Source: Pseudomonadota bacterium (GTDB lineage Bacteria > Pseudomonadota > Alphaproteobacteria > Geminicoccales > Geminicoccaceae). Taken from it: a stretch of DNA of 64,000 nt. Below the pieces are notes generated by a model. The model worked only from the letters and a program-made list of their open reading frames with translations, had not been told where the DNA came from and did no database searches. The position numbers and the translations under genes are program-made. Positions within the stretch are counted from its first letter, which is position 1. Each line of letters starts with the position of its first letter. Where the stretch lies: NCBI GenBank assembly GCA_030549795.1, contig JAUQQO010000006.1:1-64000 (forward strand), read 5' to 3'. Shown here in pieces: positions 9,030 to 29,751 of the stretch.

Positions 9030-10832
9030 ATGAATCACGCAGGCCGCCGGCTCGCCGAGCTCGCCTACGGCCGGAAGCCGAGCCGCGATCTCGCGCGCTT
9101 GCGGTTGCTGTGGCACTATCTCGCACCCTATCGAGCGACGATCGCGTTGACCCTCGCAGCGCTGTTGATCGCCGCTGCAAGCGTGCTCTCGCTTGGGATC
9201 GGGGTGCGCTTTTTGATCGACGGCGGCTTCGCGGGCGGCAAGCCGGAAGCCCTCGACCACGCCGCGGAGGCGGTGCTCATTTTGGTCGCGGTCCTCGCGC
9301 TCGCCACCTTCTTCCGCGCCTGGCTCGTCACCCGCTTGGGCGAGCGGGTGGTGGCGGATCTCAGGCGCGATCTCTTCGCCAAGGTGGTGCAGCTCTCTCC
9401 CGGCTTCTTCGAGACCACCCGCACGGGCGAGGTCCTTTCGCGGCTCACCACCGACACCGCCGTCATCCAAAGCGTCATCGGCGCCACGGCGACCCAGGCC
9501 TTGCGCAACCTTCTTCTGGTCGTAGGCGGGATCCTGCTCCTGCTCGTCACCAACCCGAAGCTCACCGGCCTTGTCCTCCTCGTCGTTCCGCTCGTGGTGT
9601 TGCCGATCGTGGTCATCGGCCGGCGCGTGCGTCGGCTCTCGCGCGCCGCCCAGGACCGCGTCGCCGATTTGGGGGCGACGATTGAGGAGAATTTGAACGC
9701 CATCCGCACCGTGCAGGCCTTCGCCCAGGAGGCCCATGTCGCGCGGCGGGTGGGTGAGCTGGCCGAACATGCGTTCGCCGCCGCCTCGCGCTACGCCTTC
9801 GCCCGCGCTTTGATGGGTGCGGTCGTCATCGCCCTCGTCTTCAGCGCCATCGTCCTGGTCTTGTGGGTGGGCGGCCAAGACGTGCTCGCCGGTCGCGTCA
9901 GCGGCGGTGAGCTCGCTTCGTTCGTGTTCTACGCCATCGTGGTCGCAAGCGCGGTCGGCGGACTGTCGGAGGTCGCAGGCGATCTGCAGCGCGCCGCTGG
10001 GGCCGCCGAGCGCTTGGTGGAATTGCTCGAGACCCGCCCCTCGATCACCGCACCGCCCACGCCGGTTCGCTTACCTGCCCGCGGGGCGGGGCTGTTGCGC
10101 TTCGAGGGCGTCACCTTTGCCTACCCGGCGCGGCCCGAGCGACCCGTGCTCCGCGACTTCGATCTCGAAGTGCGGCCGGGCGAGACGGTGGCCCTCGTCG
10201 GTCCATCCGGTGCCGGCAAAACGAGCGTGTTGCACCTCGCGCTGCGCTTTTATGACCCGCAAGAGGGACGGATCACCTTCGATGGGGTGGACGTGCGCGA
10301 GCTCGATCCGCGCGAGCTGCGCCAACGGATCGCCCTCGTTCCCCAAGACCCGGTGATCTTCTCGGCGGACGCGCGCACCAACATCGCCTTCGGGCGGCCG
10401 GACGCGCGCGAGGAGGAGATCCGCGCCGCCGCCCAGGCGGCCGCTGCCCTCTCCTTCATCGAGGCCTTGCCGCAAGGCTTTTCCACCTATCTCGGCGAGA
10501 AGGGGGTGCGCCTTTCCGGCGGCCAAAAGCAGCGTATCGCGATCGCCCGGGCTCTTTTGTGCGACCCGGAACTGTTGCTCTTGGACGAAGCGACGAGCGC
10601 GCTCGATGCCGAGAGCGAGCGGTTGATCCAAGAAGCTCTCGAGCGCCTGCGGCGCGGCCGCTCCTGTCTTGTGGTGGCGCACCGCCTCGCCACCGTCCGC
10701 AAGGCCGACCGCATCGTCGTACTCGATGAGGGCCGGGTGGTCGACCAGGGCCGCCACGAAGAGCTCGTCGCCCGAGGCGGCCTCTATGCACGCTTGGCCA
10801 CGCTGCAATTCGGCCTCGAGCGGGCGGCGTAA
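9030..10832 (+). CDS. ABC exporter, fused permease and ATPase (MsbA/multidrug type)
   Basis: Half-transporter expected to form a homodimer in the inner membrane and export a lipid or drug-like substrate. The first 320 or so residues hold about six hydrophobic segments. The ATPase follows with Walker [10 protein letters not shown] near residue 390, the signature LSGGQKQR, Walker [12 protein letters not shown] and the switch His in [15 protein letters not shown]. It is 600 residues with a GGAG site before the ATG. Alphaproteobacteria often carry such a gene beside rpmE, but the substrate cannot be read from sequence. It converges on the coiled-coil gene with a 7-base gap. Confidence 0.9.
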
Positions 10833-10839
10833 GCAGCAG

Positions 10840-13383
10840 CTAGCGCGCGATCAAGCGCACGGCGACCTCGCGTCCCTCGCCCGCAAGAGAACCCACCCGC
10901 TCGCCTGCGCGCACGAGCAGGCGCATCTGGGCGCGTGGCAGACCGGACGCGGCGAGCCGCTCGGCCACCGTTCGCGCCCGCGCGGCAGCGAGGGCTTCGT
11001 TGGATTGGAAGCCTGCGCGCACCACCGGACGCGCGTCGGTGCGGCCCTCCACTTCGAGCATCCAGTCCTGAGCGCCGAGCCCGTCGATCCGCTCCCGCAA
11101 AGAGGCAACGAGCCGGCTCAGCGCCCGCTCGCCGCCGCTCCCGAGCTCCGCCCGCCCGACCGCAAAAGGCACCAACGCTTCAAAGAGGACCGTCTCGAAC
11201 GGCGCCCCGGTCGATCCCGCGTCGCGATCGCTGGTCTCGCCGCCACTTTCGAGCTTGAGGGCCTCGAGCAACGGCTGAAGGCGCGTCCGCATCTCGTCGC
11301 GCTCGCGCTCTAAGCGCGCCCGCTCGCCCTCAAGCCACTCCCGCTCGGCTTGGGCCGCTGCGAGCAGAGCCTCGAGCTCGCCAATGCGCGCCTGCGCTGC
11401 ACGCCAGCGACCGTCGAGGGCGGCGATCTGCCCATCAACCTCGGAACGCATGAGCTCGCGCTCGCGTTCGAGCTGGGCTGCGGCGCGCTGTGCCTCCCCG
11501 AGCGCCGCCTCGCGTTCCGCGCGCTCAGCTGAAAGCTGCGCTTGCGCTTCGGCCAGGCGAGCCTCGAGCTCGGCGAGCCGCGCCTCGCGCTCGGCCTGCT
11601 CGCGGGCGCCTGCTCGCCGGGCCTCGGCGAGGGCGCCTTCGCTGCGCCGTGCCGCCTCGGCCGTCTCCTGGAGCCGCAGGCGCAGCGCCTCGGTCTCGGC
11701 AGAGGCACGCGCGAGCGCTCCTTCCACCTCTTCGAGACGTCGGGCGAGCGCGCTCGCGCGCGAAGCTGCCACCTCTCCTTCGGCTCGGGCGGTTTCGTGC
11801 AGCGTTTGGACCCGCGCGAGCTCGGCCTGCGTGCGCGAGAGTACGTCTTCGCGCTCCTGCACCCGCGCCGCCAAGGCGGCGACCTCGGCGCGTCTTTGCG
11901 CGAGCTCGGCTTCAAGCGCGCGCCGGTCCGCTTCGAGCCTGGCGAGCTCTTCGGGTAACGGCCGAAGGGCTTCGGCTTCGCGCGCGCGCTCCTCAGCCTC
12001 CCGCTCGGCGCGGATGCGCACACGCCGTTCCTCTTCGAGCGCGCGCGAAAGCTCACCGATTTCGATCCGGTGCGCGTCCCGTTCGCGCTCGACCTCGGCC
12101 AAGCGTTGGGCGAGCTTATCGCGTTCGCTCGCGATCGAATCGAGCGCACGTGCCCGCTCGCGTTCTGTGCCCTCGAGCAAAACGCGCAGTTCCTGGGCTT
12201 GGGTTTGGGCGCGGGCGAGCGCCTGTTGCAGCGCATCGCGCTCGCTGGCCAAATGCTCGGCGCGGGCCTCTGCGGCCCTTTGCGCCTGTGCTGCCGCTTC
12301 AAGCGCGCGACGCAGCTCGGCATTCTCGGCGCGCTCCTGTGCCTCGCGCGCTTCTTGTTGGGCGAGAAGAGATTGCAGGGTCTCGCTGCGCGCGCGACTC
12401 GCCTGGAGCTCGGCGCTCAACTGTTCGATCCGCGCCTGGGCGGCGCGCTCGGCCGCGCGCTGTGCGCGCTCCGCTTCGCTGCGCGCTTCCGCAAGCGCCC
12501 GCTCGAGCTCGCTGAGCCCGCCCCGAGCAGCTTCGAGCTCGCGGCGAAGCTCTTCGCGGTCGGCTTCGAGCGCGCGCAGGAGCGTGCGACCGGTTTCGCG
12601 CTCGACCCGCAGCTCCTCCACCGCGCGGGCGAAGGCTTGTGTTTCCTCTTCCCGCACCCGCCGCTCGGCGCGCAGCGCCGCGAGCTCGTCCCGCACCCGC
12701 TCGAGAGCCTGCGCAAGGCCGCGGAGCTCGGCGAGCGCCGCTTCGGCGGGGAAGGCCGATTGGGCGCTCTCCTGCCGCGCGTGGGGTGAGCGATCGCGCG
12801 CGCCATCCGGTGCGGCCGTTTCCTTGAGCTGTAACCGCAGTTCCTCTGCCGCTCTCGTCGCCTCGAGGGCAGCCGCCTCGCTCTGCGCCAAACGGGCGCG
12901 GAGCTGGTCGCGCTCGGCGATCAGTTCGGCGATCGTTTGCTCGCGCTCAGCGAGCGTGCGGGAGAAGCCCTGTTCGGCTTGGGCGAGCATCTCGCGCAGC
13001 GCGCTCACTTCACTTTCGCGCTCGCGCAAGCGCGCACTCGCGGCGGCGAGCTCACTGCGCGCGCCCTCGAGGCGCAAGGCCAACTCGCGCCGCGCTGCCT
13101 CGAGCTCGGCGAGTTCACCGGGAAGCGGCCGCAACGCCTCGAGTTCGCGCACGAGCGCTTCCATGCGGGCCTCAGGACTGCCCTCGTGCGCCGCCGAGCC
13201 GAGGCGGTCGAGGAGGGCTGCGAGCTCGCGCTCGCCGCTTGCCATCTGCCCCTGCACCCAAAGGCCCAAGCCGGCCGCGACGGCGAGGGGAACGAGGAGA
13301 GTGAGCGCGGACCTCGTGGTCCGCCGCCGCTCCCAATGCGCGAGCTGCTCTTCGAGCTCGGCGAGGCGGGGATCGAGAGCCAT
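10840..13383 (-). CDS. Membrane-anchored long coiled-coil protein with C-terminal OmpA-like domain
   Basis: An 847-residue inner-membrane protein. There is a short cytoplasmic N-terminus, one TM helix (about residues 25-46), then heptad-rich Glu/Arg/Ala/Leu coiled coil from about 52 to 712, broken by a Pro-rich linker at 190-213. A degenerate OmpA/MotB-type domain follows (about 728-847, with VEGRTDARP, N795 and a following AARARTVAERL). ALRPLPxELAxLEA occurs at 83-96 and 472-485, and LRLxLxETA at 182 and 567, showing an internal duplication. It starts 4 bases after the small membrane gene and is the last gene of the MotA/MotB-like cluster. Probable role: a periplasmic rod or peptidoglycan anchor, by inference. 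Confidence 0.8.
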   Translation of the reverse strand: MALDPRLAELEEQLAHWERRRTTRSALTLLVPLAVAAGLGLWVQGQMASGERELAALLDRLGSAAHEGSPEARMEALVRELEALRPLPGELAELEAARRELALRLEGARSELAAASARLRERESEVSALREMLAQAEQGFSRTLAEREQTIAELIAERDQLRARLAQSEAAALEATRAAEELRLQLKETAAPDGARDRSPHARQESAQSAFPAEAALAELRGLAQALERVRDELAALRAERRVREEETQAFARAVEELRVERETGRTLLRALEADREELRRELEAARGGLSELERALAEARSEAERAQRAAERAAQARIEQLSAELQASRARSETLQSLLAQQEAREAQERAENAELRRALEAAAQAQRAAEARAEHLASERDALQQALARAQTQAQELRVLLEGTERERARALDSIASERDKLAQRLAEVERERDAHRIEIGELSRALEEERRVRIRAEREAEERAREAEALRPLPEELARLEADRRALEAELAQRRAEVAALAARVQEREDVLSRTQAELARVQTLHETARAEGEVAASRASALARRLEEVEGALARASAETEALRLRLQETAEAARRSEGALAEARRAGAREQAEREARLAELEARLAEAQAQLSAERAEREAALGEAQRAAAQLERERELMRSEVDGQIAALDGRWRAAQARIGELEALLAAAQAEREWLEGERARLERERDEMRTRLQPLLEALKLESGGETSDRDAGSTGAPFETVLFEALVPFAVGRAELGSGGERALSRLVASLRERIDGLGAQDWMLEVEGRTDARPVVRAGFQSNEALAAARARTVAERLAASGLPRAQMRLLVRAGERVGSLAGEGREVAVRLIAR

Positions 13384-13387
13384 GGCG

Positions 13388-13774
13388 TCAACCCCTGGAT
13401 CGCGGCGGATAGAGCCGCTCGATCAGATCGAGGATCCCGCTTCGGCGCTGCGCGAGGACTTCGGGCGGACCCGGCTCCGACCAGTCCTCGGCCAACACGC
13501 GCAATCCTTCCGCGCGCTCGGCGAACTCCACCGCCTCCACCCAAAGCCAAGGAACCCAAGCCATGCTCATGGCACCGAAAGCAAAAAGCGCCACCCACCC
13601 AGACCACATGCCGCCGAGGAGCGCGGCTACGCCCAAAAGCAGGAGCGCGGCGGCGATGACCCGACGCACGCGCGCGCCATGGAACAGTGCTGCGGCCATG
13701 CGCTCGAAGACGATGCGACCCGGTGGTGCCGCTACGACCGAGCGCAGCGCACCCTGTGCTGTCTCCTCGACCAT
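13388..13774 (-). CDS. Small two-helix membrane protein of the MotA/MotB-like cluster
   Basis: A 128-residue protein of no family I recognise. A hydrophilic N-terminus is followed by two closely spaced hydrophobic stretches (about residues 35-75: AAALLLLGVAALLGG and ALFAFGAMSMAW), then a charged C-terminal tail ending in RLYPPRSRG. The ATG at 13774 is preferred over a TTG 20 codons earlier, which adds only an Arg-rich extension. It lies between the MotB-like gene and the long coiled-coil gene, 4 bases before the latter, so it is likely a subunit or assembly factor of the same complex (inference). Confidence 0.7.
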   Translation of the reverse strand: MVEETAQGALRSVVAAPPGRIVFERMAAALFHGARVRRVIAAALLLLGVAALLGGMWSGWVALFAFGAMSMAWVPWLWVEAVEFAERAEGLRVLAEDWSEPGPPEVLAQRRSGILDLIERLYPPRSRG

Positions 13775-13876
13775 CGCCGCTCTCGTGCGTTTCCTCTTTA
13801 GTCGCGAGAGTGCACGACGCTGCGCGGATTGCAATGTCGCGCGCGCCGCAGCGTGCGGCGCCGATGCGCGCGGGCG

Positions 13877-15112
13877 CTAGCGTGTGGTGAGTTTGAGCTC
13901 GATCCGGCGGTTGCGCCGATAGGCTTCTTCGTTGTCGCGCGGATCGAGCGGCTGATATTCGCCGAAGCCGCGCGCCGCCAAGCGCTGCGGGGGGATACCC
14001 TGGGCCATGAGGAAGCGAACGACGGAAAGCGCGCGCGCTGTTGAGAGCTCCCAGTTGGAGGGAAAGCGCGCGGTGGCGATGGGACGCTTGTCGGTGTGTC
14101 CGTCCACCTGCAGCACCCAGGGCAGCTCTTCTGGGATCTCGGCAGCGATCTGGCGTAGCGTCTGGGCGAGCTTTAAGAGCTCGGCCTGTCCTTCCGGGCC
14201 GAGTTCGGCTTCGCCGACGCCGAAAAGGACCTCGGCTTGGAAGACGAAGCGGTCGCCCACGATGCGCACGTCCTCGCGCTCGCCGAGCACCCGCCGCAAC
14301 CGCCCGAAGAAGTCGGAGCGGTACTGCGCGAGCTCCTCGACCTGGGCGGCGAGCGCCTCGTTCAAGCGCTGGCCGAGCTCGGCGATGCGGGCGCTCTGCC
14401 GATCGATCTCGCTGCGCTTTTCGAGCAGCGCGGCATCCAAGATCTGCAGCTGACGACCGAGCTGTTCGAGGCGCGCGATCAATTGCGCCACCTGCTCTTC
14501 AGCTGCGACGCGTCCTTTGGCTTCGGCGGCCTTTTCCGCGAGGAGGGCATCGCGCGCGAGGCGCAGCGCTTCGACTTGGCGACGCAGCTCGGCGAGCTCG
14601 GCGAGCTGAACCTCGACTTTTTCCCGCTCGATCGCGACCGTGCGTCGGCTCTCCTCGAGCGCGCGGGACAGCGCCACGTTCTCGCGCTCGAGCTCTTCGC
14701 GCGCGCGGCGGTTTTCCTCAATTACGCGCTCAAGCCCCGACCGTTCGACCAAAAGGCGGCGCAAGCGCACCTCCTGATCGGCCCGCTCGGCTTCCGCCCG
14801 CACAAGACGATCCTCGAGCTCGCGGCGGCCGGCTTCGGCGGCGAGCAAGCGTTGATCGAGATCGCTTAAGCGGGCGCGCAGGGCGCGCGCCGCCGCCCGC
14901 TCGGCTTCGAGCTCTTCGCTGGCGGTCTTAAGGCGTGCCTCGAGGCGCGCCATGGTCTCGGTGCGGCCCTCGAGCATCTGGCTCAAGAAGAACTGGCCGA
15001 GCACGAAGACGACGAGAAGGAAGATGATGCCGAGCAAGAGCGTGGAGAGCGCATCGACGAAACCCGGCCAGATCTCGGCCTGGTGGCGTTGCCCCCGACG
15101 CGCGCGCAACAC
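13877..15112 (-). CDS. MotB/OmpA-like stator or peptidoglycan-binding protein
   Basis: Partner of the proton channel encoded just upstream. One TM helix (about 19-47) is preceded by WPGFVDALSTLL, where Asp20 sits at the position of the proton-carrying Asp of MotB/TolR/ExbD proteins. A coiled coil covers about 50-270. A canonical OmpA-like domain follows (about 290-411), with VDGHTDKRPI, PSNWELSTARAL and a final RNRRIELKL. It is 411 residues from a GTG with an AAGGAG ribosome site, 3 bases after the channel gene. It is not the flagellar MotB, because no flagellar gene is near. Confidence 0.85.
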   Translation of the reverse strand: MLRARRGQRHQAEIWPGFVDALSTLLLGIIFLLVVFVLGQFFLSQMLEGRTETMARLEARLKTASEELEAERAAARALRARLSDLDQRLLAAEAGRRELEDRLVRAEAERADQEVRLRRLLVERSGLERVIEENRRAREELERENVALSRALEESRRTVAIEREKVEVQLAELAELRRQVEALRLARDALLAEKAAEAKGRVAAEEQVAQLIARLEQLGRQLQILDAALLEKRSEIDRQSARIAELGQRLNEALAAQVEELAQYRSDFFGRLRRVLGEREDVRIVGDRFVFQAEVLFGVGEAELGPEGQAELLKLAQTLRQIAAEIPEELPWVLQVDGHTDKRPIATARFPSNWELSTARALSVVRFLMAQGIPPQRLAARGFGEYQPLDPRDNEEAYRRNRRIELKLTTR

Positions 15113-15115
15113 GGC

Positions 15116-16249
15116 TCACTCCTTAAGAAGCGCAGGCGTGCCCGCAGCGGCTGCGACCGTGCGCGCGAGCACGCGAAGCTCGTTGCGCACCTCGCGCACG
15201 AGTTCCCCGCGGCCGCGGGCGATCTCCTCGGCGAGCCGGCCGAGCTGCACATCGAGGTTGCGGATGTGAGCTTTGACCGTCTCATCAAGCAGCGGTGCCG
15301 GCCGCGCGAGTTCGCGCGCGAGTTGCTCTTGGAACTGGGCGAGGCGGGAGAGGAGCTCGTGCTCGCGCATCAAACCGTCACCCAGCACCGCAAGGCGCTC
15401 ACCGAGCTGGTGCAACACCGCGTGCAGCTGCGCGCGCCCGTCTTCGGCGCGTGCGAGAAGCGCCTGCAGGCGATCGAGGTTTTCTGCCGTCTGCTGCAAC
15501 AAAGCGGAAATATAGGCCGGTAGCGCGGGACCGGTGGCTTCTCCGGGCAAAGCTTCGACGCCGCCGTAGCGGGTCATCCCGGAGAGCCATTCTTCGAGCT
15601 CGTTGGTGAACCGGTTCTGCGCTTGGGTAGCCTGGAGATCCAAAAAGCCGACCACGAGCGAACCGGCGAGGCCGAAGAGCGAGGCGCCAAAGGCGGTGCC
15701 CATCCCCGAGATGGGCATCCGCAGGCCTTCTTTGAGCTCGTCAAAGAGGGCCACGAAATCACCCGTACCCAGGCTCAAGCCCGAGATCACCGTCCCGATC
15801 GCCCCCAACGCCTCGATGAGGCCCCAAAAGGTACCGAGCAGGCCAAGAAAAATGAGCAAGCTCGTCTGATAGCGGGCGATCTCGCGGCTCTCGTCCAGCC
15901 GGGCGGCAGTGCTATCCAGCAAATAGCGCGCGAGCGCGGGAGAGAGTTGCGTACGCCCCTTGCGTTCGCCGATCACGGAAAGAATGGGAGCGAGCACGGC
16001 CGGCTGCGGCAGACGGCTCAGCGCTGCGCCCATTCGGTGCGCCTCGATCCATTCGATCGCCGGCTTAAGCGCCAAGATCCGCCGCAGGTTGAATGCGATC
16101 CCGACGATCAGCACGCCCAGGATCAACCCATTGAGCCAGGGATTGAAGCGGAAGGCACGCCAGATGACGGGAAAAAGGACTGCTGCGACCGCCGCCGCAA
16201 TGGCGAGGAAAAGGAGTGAGCGGAAAAGGAAACGCTGTGGGCTCGACAT
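15116..16249 (-). CDS. MotA/TolQ/ExbB-family proton-channel protein
   Basis: Predicted inner-membrane channel subunit with four hydrophobic segments: residues about 8-30, 37-58, 126-155 (SLLIFLGLLGTFWGLIEALG) and 183-208 (GMGTAFGASLFGLAGSLVVG). The last two carry the conserved MotA/ExbB pore motifs. A long helical C-terminal tail of about 150 residues follows, unlike compact TolQ/ExbB. The ATG at 16249 gives 377 residues; earlier in-frame ATGs add a Cys/Arg-rich leader without membrane character. It is first in a four-gene minus-strand unit and would drive the MotB-like partner with proton motive force. Confidence 0.85.
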   Translation of the reverse strand: MSSPQRFLFRSLLFLAIAAAVAAVLFPVIWRAFRFNPWLNGLILGVLIVGIAFNLRRILALKPAIEWIEAHRMGAALSRLPQPAVLAPILSVIGERKGRTQLSPALARYLLDSTAARLDESREIARYQTSLLIFLGLLGTFWGLIEALGAIGTVISGLSLGTGDFVALFDELKEGLRMPISGMGTAFGASLFGLAGSLVVGFLDLQATQAQNRFTNELEEWLSGMTRYGGVEALPGEATGPALPAYISALLQQTAENLDRLQALLARAEDGRAQLHAVLHQLGERLAVLGDGLMREHELLSRLAQFQEQLARELARPAPLLDETVKAHIRNLDVQLGRLAEEIARGRGELVREVRNELRVLARTVAAAAGTPALLKE

Positions 16250-16301: not shown

Positions 16302-16371
16302 CTTGCCACGCGCCGCGATGTCCGGACGCCGCATGCAGAAGCGGTGGTCGCCCTCCGCGCGGCGTGGCAAG
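16302..16371. repeat. Inverted repeat in a divergent control region
   Basis: Arms at 16302-16317 and 16356-16371 are inverted copies, 14 of 16 bases matching, with a perfect 10-base core (CTTGCCACGC / GCGTGGCAAG). The pair lies in the 152-base gap between the divergently transcribed channel gene and the DUF3775 gene. It could be a paired operator site or a transcript hairpin. No T-run follows, so it is not a typical terminator. Confidence 0.55.
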
Positions 16372-16401
16372 ATGGGCTCCAGCTTCAGGAAGGAAGGGAC
16401 C

Positions 16402-16788
16402 ATGCCGACGATCGACCGTGACAAGGTCTGCTGGATCATCCTCAAGGCCCGCGAATTCGACGCCAAGACCGCCCCGGTCGAAGAGGATTATGGATCGAAC
16501 CCGATCGATGAAGACATGCGCGAAGTGCTCGAGGATCTGCCGGACGACCCGGTCGAAGAAGAGCTCAAAGAGTTCATCAACGCGCTCAACGAGGACGAGC
16601 AAGTCGAACTCGTCGCCCTCGCGTGGGTCGGTCGCGGCAGCTACGCTCCCGAGGAATGGGCGGAAGCAGTAGCGGAAGCGCGGCGTGTCCACAACGATCG
16701 CACCGCTGAATATCTCTTGGGCATGCCGCTTTTGAGCGATTATTTACTCGAGGGACTCGCCGCATTCGGCTTGAGCTGCGAAGAGTGA
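16402..16788 (+). CDS. DUF3775 domain protein
   Basis: A 128-residue acidic soluble protein of a conserved, uncharacterised family found mainly in alphaproteobacteria. Family-like segments are KAREFDAKTAP near the N-terminus, LNEDEQVELVALAWVGRGSY in the middle, and YLLGMPLLSDYLLEGL near the end. The ATG at 16402 follows a strong AGGAAGG; an open frame upstream of it is an Arg-rich extension over the control region. It converges on folC with a 7-base gap. No function is known. Confidence 0.85.
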   Translation: MPTIDRDKVCWIILKAREFDAKTAPVEEDYGSNPIDEDMREVLEDLPDDPVEEELKEFINALNEDEQVELVALAWVGRGSYAPEEWAEAVAEARRVHNDRTAEYLLGMPLLSDYLLEGLAAFGLSCEE

Positions 16789-24189: not shown

Positions 24190-27100
24190 TTAAGGCGGCT
24201 GCGCTTGGCTCACTGCGGCAGCGATCCGGGCGCGACCGCCCTCAACGATGAGCTCGCCGCGCCAAGACAAGCGTTTGATCCGCAATGTCCCCCGCGGCCG
24301 GGCTGGATCGCGCGTGAGCATGAGCGCGCCTTTGCGGAGCTCAAGACCCAAGAGTGCATAGGCAGCACTCAACATGCGCGCAGCCGAACCCGTGTACCAA
24401 GCCCAGCCGCCCCGTTCCTCATAGCCGGGCCCGAAGCTCACGTCCGCCGGCTGCTGGTGCGGCGGCAAACCATAGCGAGCCAGTTTCGCGGGCTCGCTCT
24501 CCCCGATCGGGGAAATCTTGTACCAGACCTCGACCGCGCGGGCTTCGAGCCGCTCCGCCTCGAGTTCTCGACCGGCAGCGCGGGCGCGCTCGGCCAAGCG
24601 CAACAGGGCATCGACCAGCCAGGACACACCGTGGCTGTACTGCCCGCCATTCTCGCGCACCCCCGGCGGATAAGCAGCGATGCGCCCGGGGTAGGGTTCG
24701 CTTCGCTCATCGAACGGCGGATGCAAGAGCAACACCATGCCGTCCCGCTCGAGCACCGCGAGCGCCGCCTCGACGAGCCGAATACCCTCCTCGAGCGCGA
24801 CCACATCGGCGAGCACCGGCCAGGCGGCGGACAGCGCATCGACGATGAGGAGCTCGCGGCCGCGGTCGTCGATGGCGCGCACGAAGCGATCGCCGCGGGC
24901 CATGCGGCGCAGAGCGGTGCGCAGGCGGCTTGCTGCCTGCCCCCAAGCGGTTGCGAGCGCCTCTTCACCGCGCGCCGCGGCGAGCCCCCGCATGCCCTGC
25001 AAGACCTCGAGCAGAAAACATCCAAGCCACACGCTCTCGCCACGGCCGCGGCGCCCGAGCCGATCCAGCCCATCGTTCCAGTCGCCCGTGCCGATGAGCG
25101 GCAACCCGTTGGGACCCAAACGCGCGAGGGTGAAGGCGATCGCCCGCCGGCAGTGTTCGAACAGACTTTCGACTTCGCGCGAGGGTCGTGGCGCGAACAC
25201 GATCCCATCGGCACCCGGCGGGATCTGCCGCCCCTCGAGGAAGGGAACCGGTTCGTCGAGGATGGCGTCGTCGCCGGTCGCAAGGACGTAGCGCACCACG
25301 ACATAGGGTAGCCACAAATGCGGGTCGCTCGCCCGATTGCGCGCCGCGAGCCCGGTTCTGCCCTCCCACGAGAGATGCCACCATTGCAGCACGTCGCCCT
25401 CGAGGAACTGTTGGGCGGCATGCAGCAAGATTTGGGCACGGGCCAGTTCGGGATCGAGGAAGAAAAGCGGCAACACATCTTGGAGCTGGTCGCGGAAGCC
25501 GAAGGCCCCGCCGCGCTGCTGCGGCCCGCAGCGGGCCCAAAGCCGCGCCACCAGCACTTGGTAGGGCAGCCAGTCGTTGACCAGCCGATCGAAGGCGGGG
25601 TCCTCGGTCTCCACGCGTAAGATCGCGAGCCGTTCGCGCCAGCGTGCGCGCACCTCTTCTTTGGCCCTGCGCACCACCTCGAGTTCGCGAAAGCGGCGGG
25701 CGAGGGCACGCGCTTCGGCAAACGCCCCCGCTTGACCCAAGGCCAAGCAGACCTCCACCTCCGCGCCCGGGGGGAGCTCGAGATCACCGGCAAAGGCGAC
25801 AAGGCGCTCCCCGTCGTCGCGGCAGCGCGGGTCGGGTGCCCCGGCGGTGAGCAGGATCGGGCGTTGCGCCCAGTTCTCCGGCATACCCATCACCCGCGCG
25901 CGCCAGCTCTCGAGCGCGTCGACATGGAGGCTGGTGGCGGCGAACAGCCAGCCCTTGGCGAAGTCGTTGCGGTGATGCCGCACGTAGACCGCGAAAGGCC
26001 CGGTTTCTTCTGTCCGTGTCTCGAGGTGACCGCGACTGTCGCGAGGGAGTTCGGCAAGCGCGACGTGGACAGCGGGAACGACGCGTAGCCGGCGCAGCCG
26101 ATCGCCGCGATTGCTCAACCGCAGCAAATCGAGCTGCACCGGTGCGTCATCAACGACGAAGACCTCGCATTGAAGCTCGAGCCCATCCTGGGCGAGGTCT
26201 TGGGGGTGTTTGTGGAAGCGCACAAGACCCGGCTCGAAGACCACCTCGTAGCGGGCATCGGGACGCCGTGCAGGGACGAAGCTCGCACTCTCGAGCACAC
26301 CCGTCTCACGGTCGATCACGAAGATCCCGCGCGTCGGCCAATCGACGGGAACGCTCTCGAGCTGGAACCGGTTCCACGCGTTCTGCTGGGCGTTGGCGCC
26401 GAAGCTGAAGACCTCGCCGTCGGAGCCGACGACCGCGCCGTGGCCGAGCGGACTTGCGAGGACATGGTGCCAGGGACGCACAAGATTGCCCGGAGCGGAG
26501 ACGATCGTCCCCTCCGATCCGAAGCCCGGCTGCGCACCCGCCGGCAGCGGCGGATCGAGAAGCTCGCGCACCGCCTCGAACTCCGCCGCAAGGCGCGCGG
26601 CATCGGGTGCGGGGCGCCCACCATAGCGGGTGATCAGCGCGACAGCGCGATCGCGATCGCGGGCGTAGCCATCGATGAAGCGGAATCGGATGTGACCGCG
26701 CGGCGGCAAATCGACATCGAGGGCAAGGCTCGCGGCGGGATCGAAGGTGTAAAGACACCCCGCATCCGTGATCGGCCGCGGAGCGTCGAGTGCGAGCCCG
26801 GCAGGACGCGCGATGCCGCCCGTGCCCAAAAAACGCGCGCGGCTGTCCTCGTAGCCGACGAGCCGCACCGAACCCTTTGCGTCGAGAGCGACCGCATGGA
26901 AAGCGACTTCCGGCGACGGGCGCTCGTCTTCCGGTCGGCGGGCAGCGTTGGGGAGCATGCGGTTGCGGGCCACGATCGCGCCGAGCGAGGGGACGAACCA
27001 GGTGGCGACGTGCAGCGCCGCGAAAGCGGGCGCGCGTTCATAGGCATCGCGGGGAGCGAGCGCGAGTTCCTGGAAACTCGTGAGCCGCAACCGCCGCGGC

Positions 27101-29751
27101 CGTTCTTCCAAGTTCTCGATCTCGACGTCCCACAGCTCGACCGGATCCTTCTCGGCCACGGAGACGGTCGCGGTAAAGCAAAGCCCCGCGCAGCGACGGC
27201 GCAGCCGCGCTTGCCAGGGCTTTAAGCGGGTGATTTCGGGAAACGAAGGATCGAGAGTTCCGGGCAGGGCCTGCAGGCCGATCGGCGGCTTGTGCGGGGC
27301 GTCGCGATCGACGAGCCAGAAGAGCTTGCCGCGCCGGCGCAAGGGATCGTCGGGGCGGCGCGTGAGATCGAGCTCGAACTCGCGATGGAGCGCGCTCAAC
27401 ACGCGCGAGAAGCCGCGGCCATCAGCGGCCAATTCGACCGTGTAGCGACCGTTGGAGAGAAGCCACGGACGATCGGGCGCCCAGCCCACCCCGGGCTGCG
27501 TGCGCGGGCGCGGATGGCGCAGTCGACGCGCCCGGGCGAGCTCGTTGTAGAGGATGGCAAGGACGAGAAAACACAGACCCGCTGCGAAGGCATAACCCAT
27601 AAGCGCCGAGCCGACGGCCGGCAAAAGCGGGCCGCCGGCGGCGCGCACGGCTTCGGCGCCACCCCACACGAAGTCCCACTCCGCGCCGCGTGGCAAATAA
27701 AAGGGGATGATCAAGGGGAACCAGGTGGCGAAGCGCCGGATCCCTTCCGGGATGCAACGGGTGCGCGCCGAATGACCGATGAACCGTGCCGCTTTCTCGT
27801 CTACGACGTCTCCGCCGACGAAGGACAAGTTGACGAGCGTAGCGACCCGTAGGCCCATGTGATCGAACCAGATGAGAATGCGCAACCAATCGTAGGCCAA
27901 CAGACCCAAAAACAGCTCGAGGCTCCAGCTTCTGAAATCTGCCGCATCGAGGCGGAAGAACTGGATCGTCGCGACGATCGTGCGCACGAGCCCGTCTTGG
28001 TTGTACCACGTCGGATCCGGAGAAAGCCGCAAGAAGGAGTAGATGATCGGGGCCATCCACAAGCCCCAGCGCAGTACCCGGATCGCCTGTTCAACCAGCG
28101 CGATGACCCCGCGCGAGGAGAAGAGCTCTTCGAGCGGCCGCAAGCGGCGCTCGACGATGGCGGTCAAGACGAGGAGATTGATCGAGAACAGCGGCGCCGC
28201 GAGCGACCAGTTGATGACGCCAGAAAGCGATTCGGCATAGAACAGAGCAACACCTCCTGGCGTCGGTCCGAGGTCCTGAGCTCCCCATTTGCTGAACAAT
28301 GGATAGACGACGTAGGGTTCGATCGATCGACCGTCGAACGGGTAATAGACGCTCGCGTAGCGGGCCCACTTGTCGACGAGCGTCGCCAGCTGTGCCGCAT
28401 CGATGTACCAAGCGAGCGCACCACCCGCTGCACCACCCAAAACAGCCGCGAGCGCATAGAGCCGCCAGCTCTGCAGCCGTCGGCGATGACCGCGCGCGAT
28501 GGCGAACGCATCGCGCGCCATATCGACCCCAGCGTAGGCAGCGATACCGGCGAATACGCCCAGAAAAAAGCGCGCGATGCCATCGGCGCGCGGCAGATCG
28601 GCGAGCAGGCCGAGTGCGAGGGCCACACCGATGGTCGCACCACGCAGATAACCCCAGGGATCGCGGGCGGCGAGCGCGAGCCGGCGCCAAAACGCCGGAC
28701 TGCCGTCGAAGGTCTCGACAATCGTGCGCACCATGGGAAAGACGAGCGCCCCCAAGCCGGCGGCAAGAAGAAGGGGAGCGTGCGCGAGCGCAGTTCGAAA
28801 CGGCGCCTGCGGGAGCAGCAGGGTTGGCAGGTGTACGATGAGCAGAAAGACGAAACCGAAGACAGCGCCTTTGATGAGACCGTCGCGCCAATGCCAAAGC
28901 GCGGCAACTCGGGTCGGTCGACGGTAGATCAGGGCATCGAGCAAGATGCCGGTGATCAAAAAGACTTCGCCCCAGAGCCCGGCTTGCGCGAGCGTGCCAG
29001 TCACCAGCACGGTCAACAGCCGCAAAAGCGCGGGAAGCTCGGCGACCGCGGCGCTCGAGCCGAGCTCGGCGATCGCAGGTGTCGCCACGGCCAGGCTCGC
29101 CGCAACGATCAGCACCAACACTAAGAGGGGATCGCGCGTCCAGCGCCGGTCCATCACCAACCCGACGGTCGTGGTGAGGAGGAGGTTGAAGCCGGCGAGG
29201 ATCAAAAAGCGCGCGAGCGCGAGCGCAGCATCCTTCGCAGCCGGCACAACGAGGCCGGCGAGCTCGAGGAGAAGAGGCCGCGCCCCGAGCAAGAGAAGGA
29301 GGTTGAACGAAAAGGGCGCGAGCACCCACGCGCAAGCGGTAAGCGGCCGCGGCAGCCGTAGTTCGCGCACGAGCGTCCAAAAACCGGCGGCGAGATAGAG
29401 CGCCACGGCGAGAGCGGCACCGAGTGGGGTCAAGGTGAGCAGATCGGCCCAGCGCCTTGGCGTTCCCCAGGGCGCCGCCTGCGCGTCGGCGGCGAGCGCG
29501 AGAAGCGCGAGCAAAAAGGCGTCGAGCAAAAGGCGCGGGATAGGTGTCGTGGCGCTCACCGCCGAGCCCGCGGCGATGAGCGCGAGCACACCCGCCGCCG
29601 CGGTCGCCACAGCCGAGGCCATGCCCTGCGCCTTCAAGGCGGCAAAGGCGGCCGCCAGCATGAGCAGTGTGGCCGCCGCGGAGAAGACGATCTGCACACC
29701 GAAGCGTCGGCGGTTCGGAGGCTCACACTCTGCGCGCGGCACTCTCTGCAT
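24190..29751 (-). CDS. Giant membrane protein with C-terminal GH94-type phosphorylase domain
   Basis: An 1853-residue protein. Residues 1 to about 735 contain many hydrophobic helices (I count roughly 15-20) and no glycosyltransferase DxD or QxxRW motif that I can find. The GH94 (former GT36) part begins near 765 with LSNGRYTVELAADGRGF. FGFRDQLQD follows at about 1417-1425, GTGDWNDGLD with the family's general-acid Asp near 1557-1560, and a downstream YPPGVRENGGQYSHG. Such domains phosphorolyse beta-glucosidic bonds or trim cyclic beta-glucans. NdvB cyclic glucan synthases combine a GT84 domain with GH94, but are near 2800 residues. The substrate is unknown. The ATG at 29751 is the first in frame. 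Confidence 0.8.
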   Translation of the reverse strand: MQRVPRAECEPPNRRRFGVQIVFSAAATLLMLAAAFAALKAQGMASAVATAAAGVLALIAAGSAVSATTPIPRLLLDAFLLALLALAADAQAAPWGTPRRWADLLTLTPLGAALAVALYLAAGFWTLVRELRLPRPLTACAWVLAPFSFNLLLLLGARPLLLELAGLVVPAAKDAALALARFLILAGFNLLLTTTVGLVMDRRWTRDPLLVLVLIVAASLAVATPAIAELGSSAAVAELPALLRLLTVLVTGTLAQAGLWGEVFLITGILLDALIYRRPTRVAALWHWRDGLIKGAVFGFVFLLIVHLPTLLLPQAPFRTALAHAPLLLAAGLGALVFPMVRTIVETFDGSPAFWRRLALAARDPWGYLRGATIGVALALGLLADLPRADGIARFFLGVFAGIAAYAGVDMARDAFAIARGHRRRLQSWRLYALAAVLGGAAGGALAWYIDAAQLATLVDKWARYASVYYPFDGRSIEPYVVYPLFSKWGAQDLGPTPGGVALFYAESLSGVINWSLAAPLFSINLLVLTAIVERRLRPLEELFSSRGVIALVEQAIRVLRWGLWMAPIIYSFLRLSPDPTWYNQDGLVRTIVATIQFFRLDAADFRSWSLELFLGLLAYDWLRILIWFDHMGLRVATLVNLSFVGGDVVDEKAARFIGHSARTRCIPEGIRRFATWFPLIIPFYLPRGAEWDFVWGGAEAVRAAGGPLLPAVGSALMGYAFAAGLCFLVLAILYNELARARRLRHPRPRTQPGVGWAPDRPWLLSNGRYTVELAADGRGFSRVLSALHREFELDLTRRPDDPLRRRGKLFWLVDRDAPHKPPIGLQALPGTLDPSFPEITRLKPWQARLRRRCAGLCFTATVSVAEKDPVELWDVEIENLEERPRRLRLTSFQELALAPRDAYERAPAFAALHVATWFVPSLGAIVARNRMLPNAARRPEDERPSPEVAFHAVALDAKGSVRLVGYEDSRARFLGTGGIARPAGLALDAPRPITDAGCLYTFDPAASLALDVDLPPRGHIRFRFIDGYARDRDRAVALITRYGGRPAPDAARLAAEFEAVRELLDPPLPAGAQPGFGSEGTIVSAPGNLVRPWHHVLASPLGHGAVVGSDGEVFSFGANAQQNAWNRFQLESVPVDWPTRGIFVIDRETGVLESASFVPARRPDARYEVVFEPGLVRFHKHPQDLAQDGLELQCEVFVVDDAPVQLDLLRLSNRGDRLRRLRVVPAVHVALAELPRDSRGHLETRTEETGPFAVYVRHHRNDFAKGWLFAATSLHVDALESWRARVMGMPENWAQRPILLTAGAPDPRCRDDGERLVAFAGDLELPPGAEVEVCLALGQAGAFAEARALARRFRELEVVRRAKEEVRARWRERLAILRVETEDPAFDRLVNDWLPYQVLVARLWARCGPQQRGGAFGFRDQLQDVLPLFFLDPELARAQILLHAAQQFLEGDVLQWWHLSWEGRTGLAARNRASDPHLWLPYVVVRYVLATGDDAILDEPVPFLEGRQIPPGADGIVFAPRPSREVESLFEHCRRAIAFTLARLGPNGLPLIGTGDWNDGLDRLGRRGRGESVWLGCFLLEVLQGMRGLAAARGEEALATAWGQAASRLRTALRRMARGDRFVRAIDDRGRELLIVDALSAAWPVLADVVALEEGIRLVEAALAVLERDGMVLLLHPPFDERSEPYPGRIAAYPPGVRENGGQYSHGVSWLVDALLRLAERARAAGRELEAERLEARAVEVWYKISPIGESEPAKLARYGLPPHQQPADVSFGPGYEERGGWAWYTGSAARMLSAAYALLGLELRKGALMLTRDPARPRGTLRIKRLSWRGELIVEGGRARIAAAVSQAQPP

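Follow-up and report, generated by a model that had tools for sequence, protein, structure and literature searches.

What does a MotA/MotB-like gene pair do when genes for a small membrane protein and a giant coiled-coil rod are set behind it? The question is raised by a stretch of 64,000 nucleotides (the window) from a bacterium of the family Geminicoccaceae, order Geminicoccales, in the Alphaproteobacteria (assembly GCA_030549795.1, contig JAUQQO010000006.1, positions 1 to 64,000), in which four genes form a run on the minus strand with gaps of 3, 102 and 4 bases (Table 1). They encode a putative proton channel (the A subunit), a MotB-like protein (the B subunit), a two-helix membrane hairpin protein and the rod. 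An earlier note on this DNA had proposed that the run encodes an undescribed proton-driven envelope machine, and its account of the four genes, with their coordinates, gaps and domains, is borne out by the open reading frames (ORFs) and by domain searches. The novelty, however, does not extend to the first two genes: the pair was already known, as the PRK09039 type, and is widespread. The new part is the rod with its hairpin protein, which are confined to the Geminicoccales. We give about an even chance to the reading that the pair is a separate alphaproteobacterial lineage of 5:2 proton motor and that the Geminicoccales rod and hairpin are an accessory anchor or transducer acting on peptidoglycan.

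The A subunit lies at the edge of detection by profile, scoring 22.3 bits against PF01618 (MotA_ExbB; cut-off 22.9) as a protein and 23.3 bits when neighbouring stretches are included. Its AlphaFold2 (AF2) model, built with 59 sequences (predicted local distance difference test 84.6), found its best Foldseek and VIA matches in ZorA, TolQ, ExbB and MotA. Foldseek gave a probability of 1.00 to ZorA (8vvn_D) and TolQ (9ddm_B) at modest E-values (2.6e-3), and VIA aligned 185 residues with TolQ (9avi) at a Z of 11.9 and a root-mean-square deviation of 3.6. Because these E-values are modest and a designed three-helix bundle also reaches a VIA Z of 10.1, the sequence match carries weight too. Thr140, in the helix GLLGTFWGL, is invariant in 59 relatives and was equated with the threonine of ExbB and TolQ through the motif GLLGT, not through superposition. 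By predicted fold and pore threonine, membership of the MotA/TolQ/ExbB proton channel superfamily is well supported.

The B subunit is the more easily recognised partner. Its transmembrane helix has an Asp at residue 20 (IWPGFVDALSTLLL), within a motif, WPG(F/Y/W)(V/I)DxLxxLL or close to it, that is present in 86 of 88 relatives, the remaining two being mis-started or mis-framed ORFs. Its OmpA domain is detected with an E-value of 2.7e-17; against the NCBIfam model NF006543 (PRK09039.1-2) the protein scores 399.8 bits, above the cut-off of 305. The channel fold, the invariant pore threonine, the invariant Asp of the B subunit and the OmpA domain support assignment of the pair to the 5:2 motor superfamily. 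That much of the 5:2-type motor on peptidoglycan that the earlier note envisaged can be upheld, with a stoichiometry taken from homologues. The chemistry and fold of such a motor are well supported here; by analogy with its homologues, A and B subunits would assemble in a ratio of five to two, protons would cross at Asp20 inside the A-subunit ring with its Thr140, and the OmpA domains of the B dimer would hold peptidoglycan, so that the ring, together with the long tail that it extends into the cytoplasm, would move relative to the wall.

Membership of the Zorya, Tol-Pal and flagellar systems was tested in turn and none fits. The pair resembles ZorA-ZorB in combining an A fold that has a long, ZorA-like cytoplasmic tail with a B subunit that has a transmembrane Asp and an OmpA-type domain, and ZorA is among the best profile and fold matches of the A subunit. 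We nevertheless consider an anti-phage Zorya-like machine very improbable: the A subunit scores 17.6 bits against the curated NCBIfam ZorA model, whose cut-off is 100, and beside the window pair there is no ZorC, ZorD or ZorE gene, the neighbours being an ATP-binding cassette (ABC) exporter, a DUF3775 gene and folC. Unlike Zorya, the locus is not a defence locus and adds a rod and a hairpin; its distribution is vertical and class-wide with conserved neighbours, and the same genome encodes type I Zorya proteins elsewhere (ZorB, ZorC and ZorD at contig C46 ~10265-15599, which is L191 1265-6599; PADLOC E-values 1e-75, 1e-81 and 1e-277). An auxiliary flagellar stator would share the domain order of the pair, its transmembrane Asp and its OmpA anchor, and the genome does encode FliG (contig C56). 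That role is extremely improbable, since a canonical flagellar MotA/MotB pair is present at contig C50, the window system differs from it in its long coiled coils, helical A-subunit tail and non-flagellar neighbours, and a probable orthologue occurs in the non-flagellated species Komagataeibacter hansenii (PMC6570709). A Tol-Pal locus lies at contig C1 and a small ExbB-like protein is encoded at contig C53; at the window locus no TolA, TolB or Pal gene was found. The window pair is distinct from all of these systems. An earlier statement that flagellar, Tol and Zorya genes are absent thus holds for the window but not for the genome. A single scan of a collection of genome contigs with the B subunit found five loci only.

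We examined 31 Geminicoccales genomes, 289 alphaproteobacterial genomes and 60 pair loci outside the order. The A subunit is encoded in 30 of the 31 Geminicoccales genomes, with the B subunit adjoining every time, and in 199 of the 289 alphaproteobacterial genomes (about two thirds); outside the order the B subunit clearly follows the A subunit in 57 of the 60 neighbourhoods, and an ABC exporter is nearby in 30. The earlier note was right that such a pair is known in this class. In Sinorhizobium meliloti the same two proteins (LZK74_31000 and LZK74_30995, PRK09039 type) are encoded in the same order with the exporter and rpmE, at 43% (A) and 40% (B) identity to the window proteins; unlike the window locus, that of S. 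meliloti has no hairpin and no rod behind the pair. The spread across the class, the adjacency and the locus shared with S. meliloti mark the pair as old, common and ancestral in alphaproteobacteria. The S. meliloti record CP090106.1 is titled plasmid pSymB; it is 3.7 Mb long, has rpmE and is probably a mislabelled chromosome. In one genome outside the Geminicoccales (G090, locus L177) a B subunit of 911 aa is encoded after the A subunit, so very long coils arise also within the B subunit itself.

The literature that we found on the function of the pair is confined to Komagataeibacter. In K. hansenii, over-expression of motA/motB led to elongated cells or chains and to faster colony spreading, and GFP fusions were polar (PMC6570709, PMC6315621). 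The K. hansenii proteins are 348 and 321 aa long, with four transmembrane helices and a reported 46-48% identity to alphaproteobacterial OmpA/MotB proteins (PMC6570709, PMC6315621), and by these features they are probably the orthologue of the pair. The claim of the earlier note that the pair has no described function therefore calls for a qualification, in that a probable orthologue has been over-expressed (PMC6570709, PMC6315621).

The two remaining proteins are of a different kind. No Pfam or NCBIfam family could be assigned to the hairpin protein, whose C-terminal tail is conserved as ER-x-x-GL-x-x-L-x-x-x-W ... LY. Twelve of the 20 members of its group gave a weak match to DUF3040, at an E-value of 5e-5 in the best case, and a weak match to the SCO2097 family reached 17.6 bits against a cut-off of 110; both were ascribed to shared two-helix hydrophobicity. 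The rod begins with a conserved helix (ELE..L..W) and a transmembrane helix at residues 25-43 that has a nearly invariant Pro; its coil of about 675 residues has a significant 3.5-residue heptad signal. The C-terminal OmpA domain is weak by sequence, at 23.0 bits on the protein (cut-off 27.2) and 28.5 bits in a genome search, and is predicted to retain the OmpA fold (Foldseek E 6e-7 to OprF; VIA Z 13.6). It is canonical in most relatives; this genus has a decayed version of its final segment (GF...NRRIEL). The degenerate second OmpA domain that had been described earlier is thus a feature of this genus only, in a domain whose predicted fold is intact. Rods and B subunits alike, those of this genus included, have D86 and R105 of the domain without exception. 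In known OmpA structures an Asp and an Arg contact diaminopimelate, and we take D86 and R105 to be these residues. By predicted fold and by this Asp and Arg, the rod ends in a putative OmpA-like peptidoglycan-binding domain.

Where did the rod come from? In all 18 rods tested the OmpA domain is closest to the PRK09039-type domain (54-146 bits), with scores of at most 52 bits against Pal, other OmpA proteins, flagellar MotB and ZorB. Since this is the type found in the B subunit, the rod is most likely, on these comparisons, a B-subunit duplicate without the proton Asp. Two OmpA-domain trees were too poorly resolved to date the duplication; the first held mis-framed rows from the genome itself, and the rows with long branches are unreliable in both. 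Descent from a PRK09039-type B subunit with the domain order kept (transmembrane helix, coil, OmpA) might suggest that the rod serves as another B-type subunit, entering the channel instead of the MotB-like protein or alongside it. We regard this as very improbable, for the rod transmembrane helix has no acidic residue in any of the 19 rods aligned, whereas the Asp of the B subunit is invariant. The same genome also encodes two other proteins of this general type. One, at contig C13 (L189 2-2383), is a further giant rod, a secreted-looking coiled-coil protein of ~788 aa that ends in an OmpA domain akin to the PRK09039 type and has no channel close to it; the other, at contig C12 (L188 1257-2543), is a PRK09039-type OmpA coiled-coil protein that passes the NCBIfam cut-off and in which a signal-peptide-like N-terminus replaces the Asp helix.

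Within the Geminicoccales the rod N-terminus was found in 23 of the 31 genomes and the hairpin protein in 20; the rod count includes three genomes (G003, G017 and G025) in which the N-terminus scores weakly and a rod-type OmpA protein lies directly behind the pair. Elsewhere in the class sample the hairpin protein was not found, except for two marginal scores. Matches to the rod N-terminus outside the order reached at most 24 bits, and none of the five that were read had the rod architecture; by inspection, two resemble sensor kinases, one a GGDEF/EAL protein and one an RND-like exporter, and the fifth looks like a further protein with one transmembrane helix. The rod is present in each of the 20 genomes with the hairpin, and the pair in each of the 23 with the rod, so that the rod and the small protein do not occur mostly without the channel pair, a distribution that the earlier note had said would refute it. 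Because 30 of the 31 genomes have the pair anyway, this co-occurrence says little, and it is adjacency that counts: in 21 of the 23 rod genomes the rod gene comes immediately after the pair. Position thus ties the rod and small protein to the pair as had been proposed, and conservation of the four-gene neighbourhood, which the note had suggested as a check, is found in the Geminicoccales but not among most relatives of the pair, which lack the rod and hairpin. In the Geminicoccales, then, the motor locus gained the rod and hairpin as a module; since most relatives of the pair do without this module, the core motor cannot depend on it. One genome (G030; L073, L095) has two slightly differing copies of the hairpin and rod on two contig ends, from a strain mixture or a duplication.

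A passive role has to be weighed here, in which the rod and hairpin form a separate peptidoglycan tether that happens to be encoded in the same operon and the motor works without them, as it does in other alphaproteobacteria. The pair occurs without the rod in seven of the 30 pair-bearing Geminicoccales genomes and at all 60 loci outside the order; in two genomes (G010, in 8 contigs, and G015, a draft) the hairpin and rod are apart from the pair; the coil varies greatly in length, with rod ORFs of 623 to 1698 aa among relatives; and the two coiled-coil OmpA proteins of C12 and C13, which look secreted and have no channel, indicate that such rods can work alone. These observations weigh against our favoured reading, as do the borrowed 5:2 stoichiometry and the dependence of the K. 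hansenii orthology on protein lengths and reported BLAST matches. So does the coil itself, which as a single straight helix would measure ~100 nm, too long to stand upright in the periplasm; together with its variable length this makes a simple push-rod of fixed length unlikely. Set against a mere tether are the position of the rod, which adjoins the pair in 21 of 23 cases on the same strand with short gaps, the fact that no rod was found in a genome without the pair, and an OmpA domain of the same type as that of the B subunit. The hairpin and rod, moreover, remain together in G010 and G015, which favours the accessory reading. We consider the passive tether somewhat unlikely.

A parallel for an active role is the TolQ-TolR-TolA system, in which a proton motor likewise works with a nearby-encoded protein that has an N-terminal transmembrane helix, a long helix and a periplasmic C-terminal domain. 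The rod has this TolA/TonB-type layout of one N-terminal transmembrane helix, a long periplasmic stretch and a C-terminal globular domain. It differs in that the window B subunit has an OmpA domain and in that the rod itself ends in OmpA and not in a TolA domain. TolA and TonB bind their motors through a His/SHLS motif (PMC12204202); the absence of that motif, and of any His in the transmembrane helix, from the 19 rods is a further point against the accessory reading. On that reading, a PRK09039-type B-subunit copy would have lost its proton Asp and gained a much longer coil in the Geminicoccales, becoming the rod, and the two-helix protein would have joined it. The N-terminal and transmembrane helices of the rod, assisted by the hairpin protein, would hold it next to the motor, and its other end would grip peptidoglycan at a distance; a second site in the wall might then receive the movement of the motor or serve as a brace for it. 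The likeliest use would be envelope work in growth or division, because the K. hansenii over-expression phenotype points there. The more specific proposal, that the B-subunit duplicate is a side-bound transducer which, with the hairpin as adapter, carries the movement of the motor to a distant second site in the wall, is unlikely on present evidence. If true, it would represent a new kind of force transmission across the envelope, with a B-subunit paralogue in the role of TolA, pulling on the cell wall and not on the outer membrane.

The pair occurs in about two thirds of the alphaproteobacteria sampled, S. meliloti among them, and its Geminicoccales partners hint at where its force might go. 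The rod may exemplify how duplication of a B subunit can give rise to a transducer. A survey described non-flagellar B subunits as lacking homology to OmpA (PMC12505986); the present family, in contrast, is widespread and joins an A subunit that is TolQ/ZorA-like by predicted fold to a B subunit that bears an OmpA domain.

Table 1. Features of the motor locus and its flanks (window coordinates)
Feature	Position	Strand	Description
ABC exporter	9030-10832	+	flanking context gene marking the ancestral locus; outside the system
Rod	10840-13383	-	847 aa; N-terminal helix, one transmembrane helix, ~675-residue coiled coil, C-terminal OmpA domain (PRK09039 type)
Two-helix membrane hairpin protein	13388-13774	-	128 aa; C-terminal tail conserved
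Gap between B-subunit and two-helix genes	13775-13876	-	102 bases
B subunit, MotB-like	13877-15112	-	411 aa, GTG start; transmembrane helix with Asp20, coiled coil ~48-285, canonical OmpA domain
A subunit, MotA/TolQ/ZorA-fold proton channel (putative)	15116-16249	-	377 aa; four hydrophobic helices, cytoplasmic helical tail ~245-368
DUF3775 gene	16303-16788	+	flanking; kept beside the pair in many Geminicoccales

The four genes are flanked on one side by the DUF3775 gene and then folC-accD-trpA, and on the other by the ABC exporter and rpmE; this exporter/rpmE locus is widely shared. Conservation of all four genes in many genomes argues that their arrangement is not due to chance, and the near relatives named by a scan of a genome collection are metagenome-assembled genomes of Geminicoccaceae. 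The gap between the B-subunit and hairpin genes has a hairpin-like look, but its folding equals that of shuffled sequence (z 0.15), and no promoter-like site was found in that region. A phage search gave no match. Elsewhere in the window, a minus-strand gene at 24190-29751 encodes a protein of 1853 aa whose first 1090 residues had no match above threshold and whose C-terminal end carries GH94 domains; it may be related to the cyclic beta-glucan synthases, though it would be short for one.

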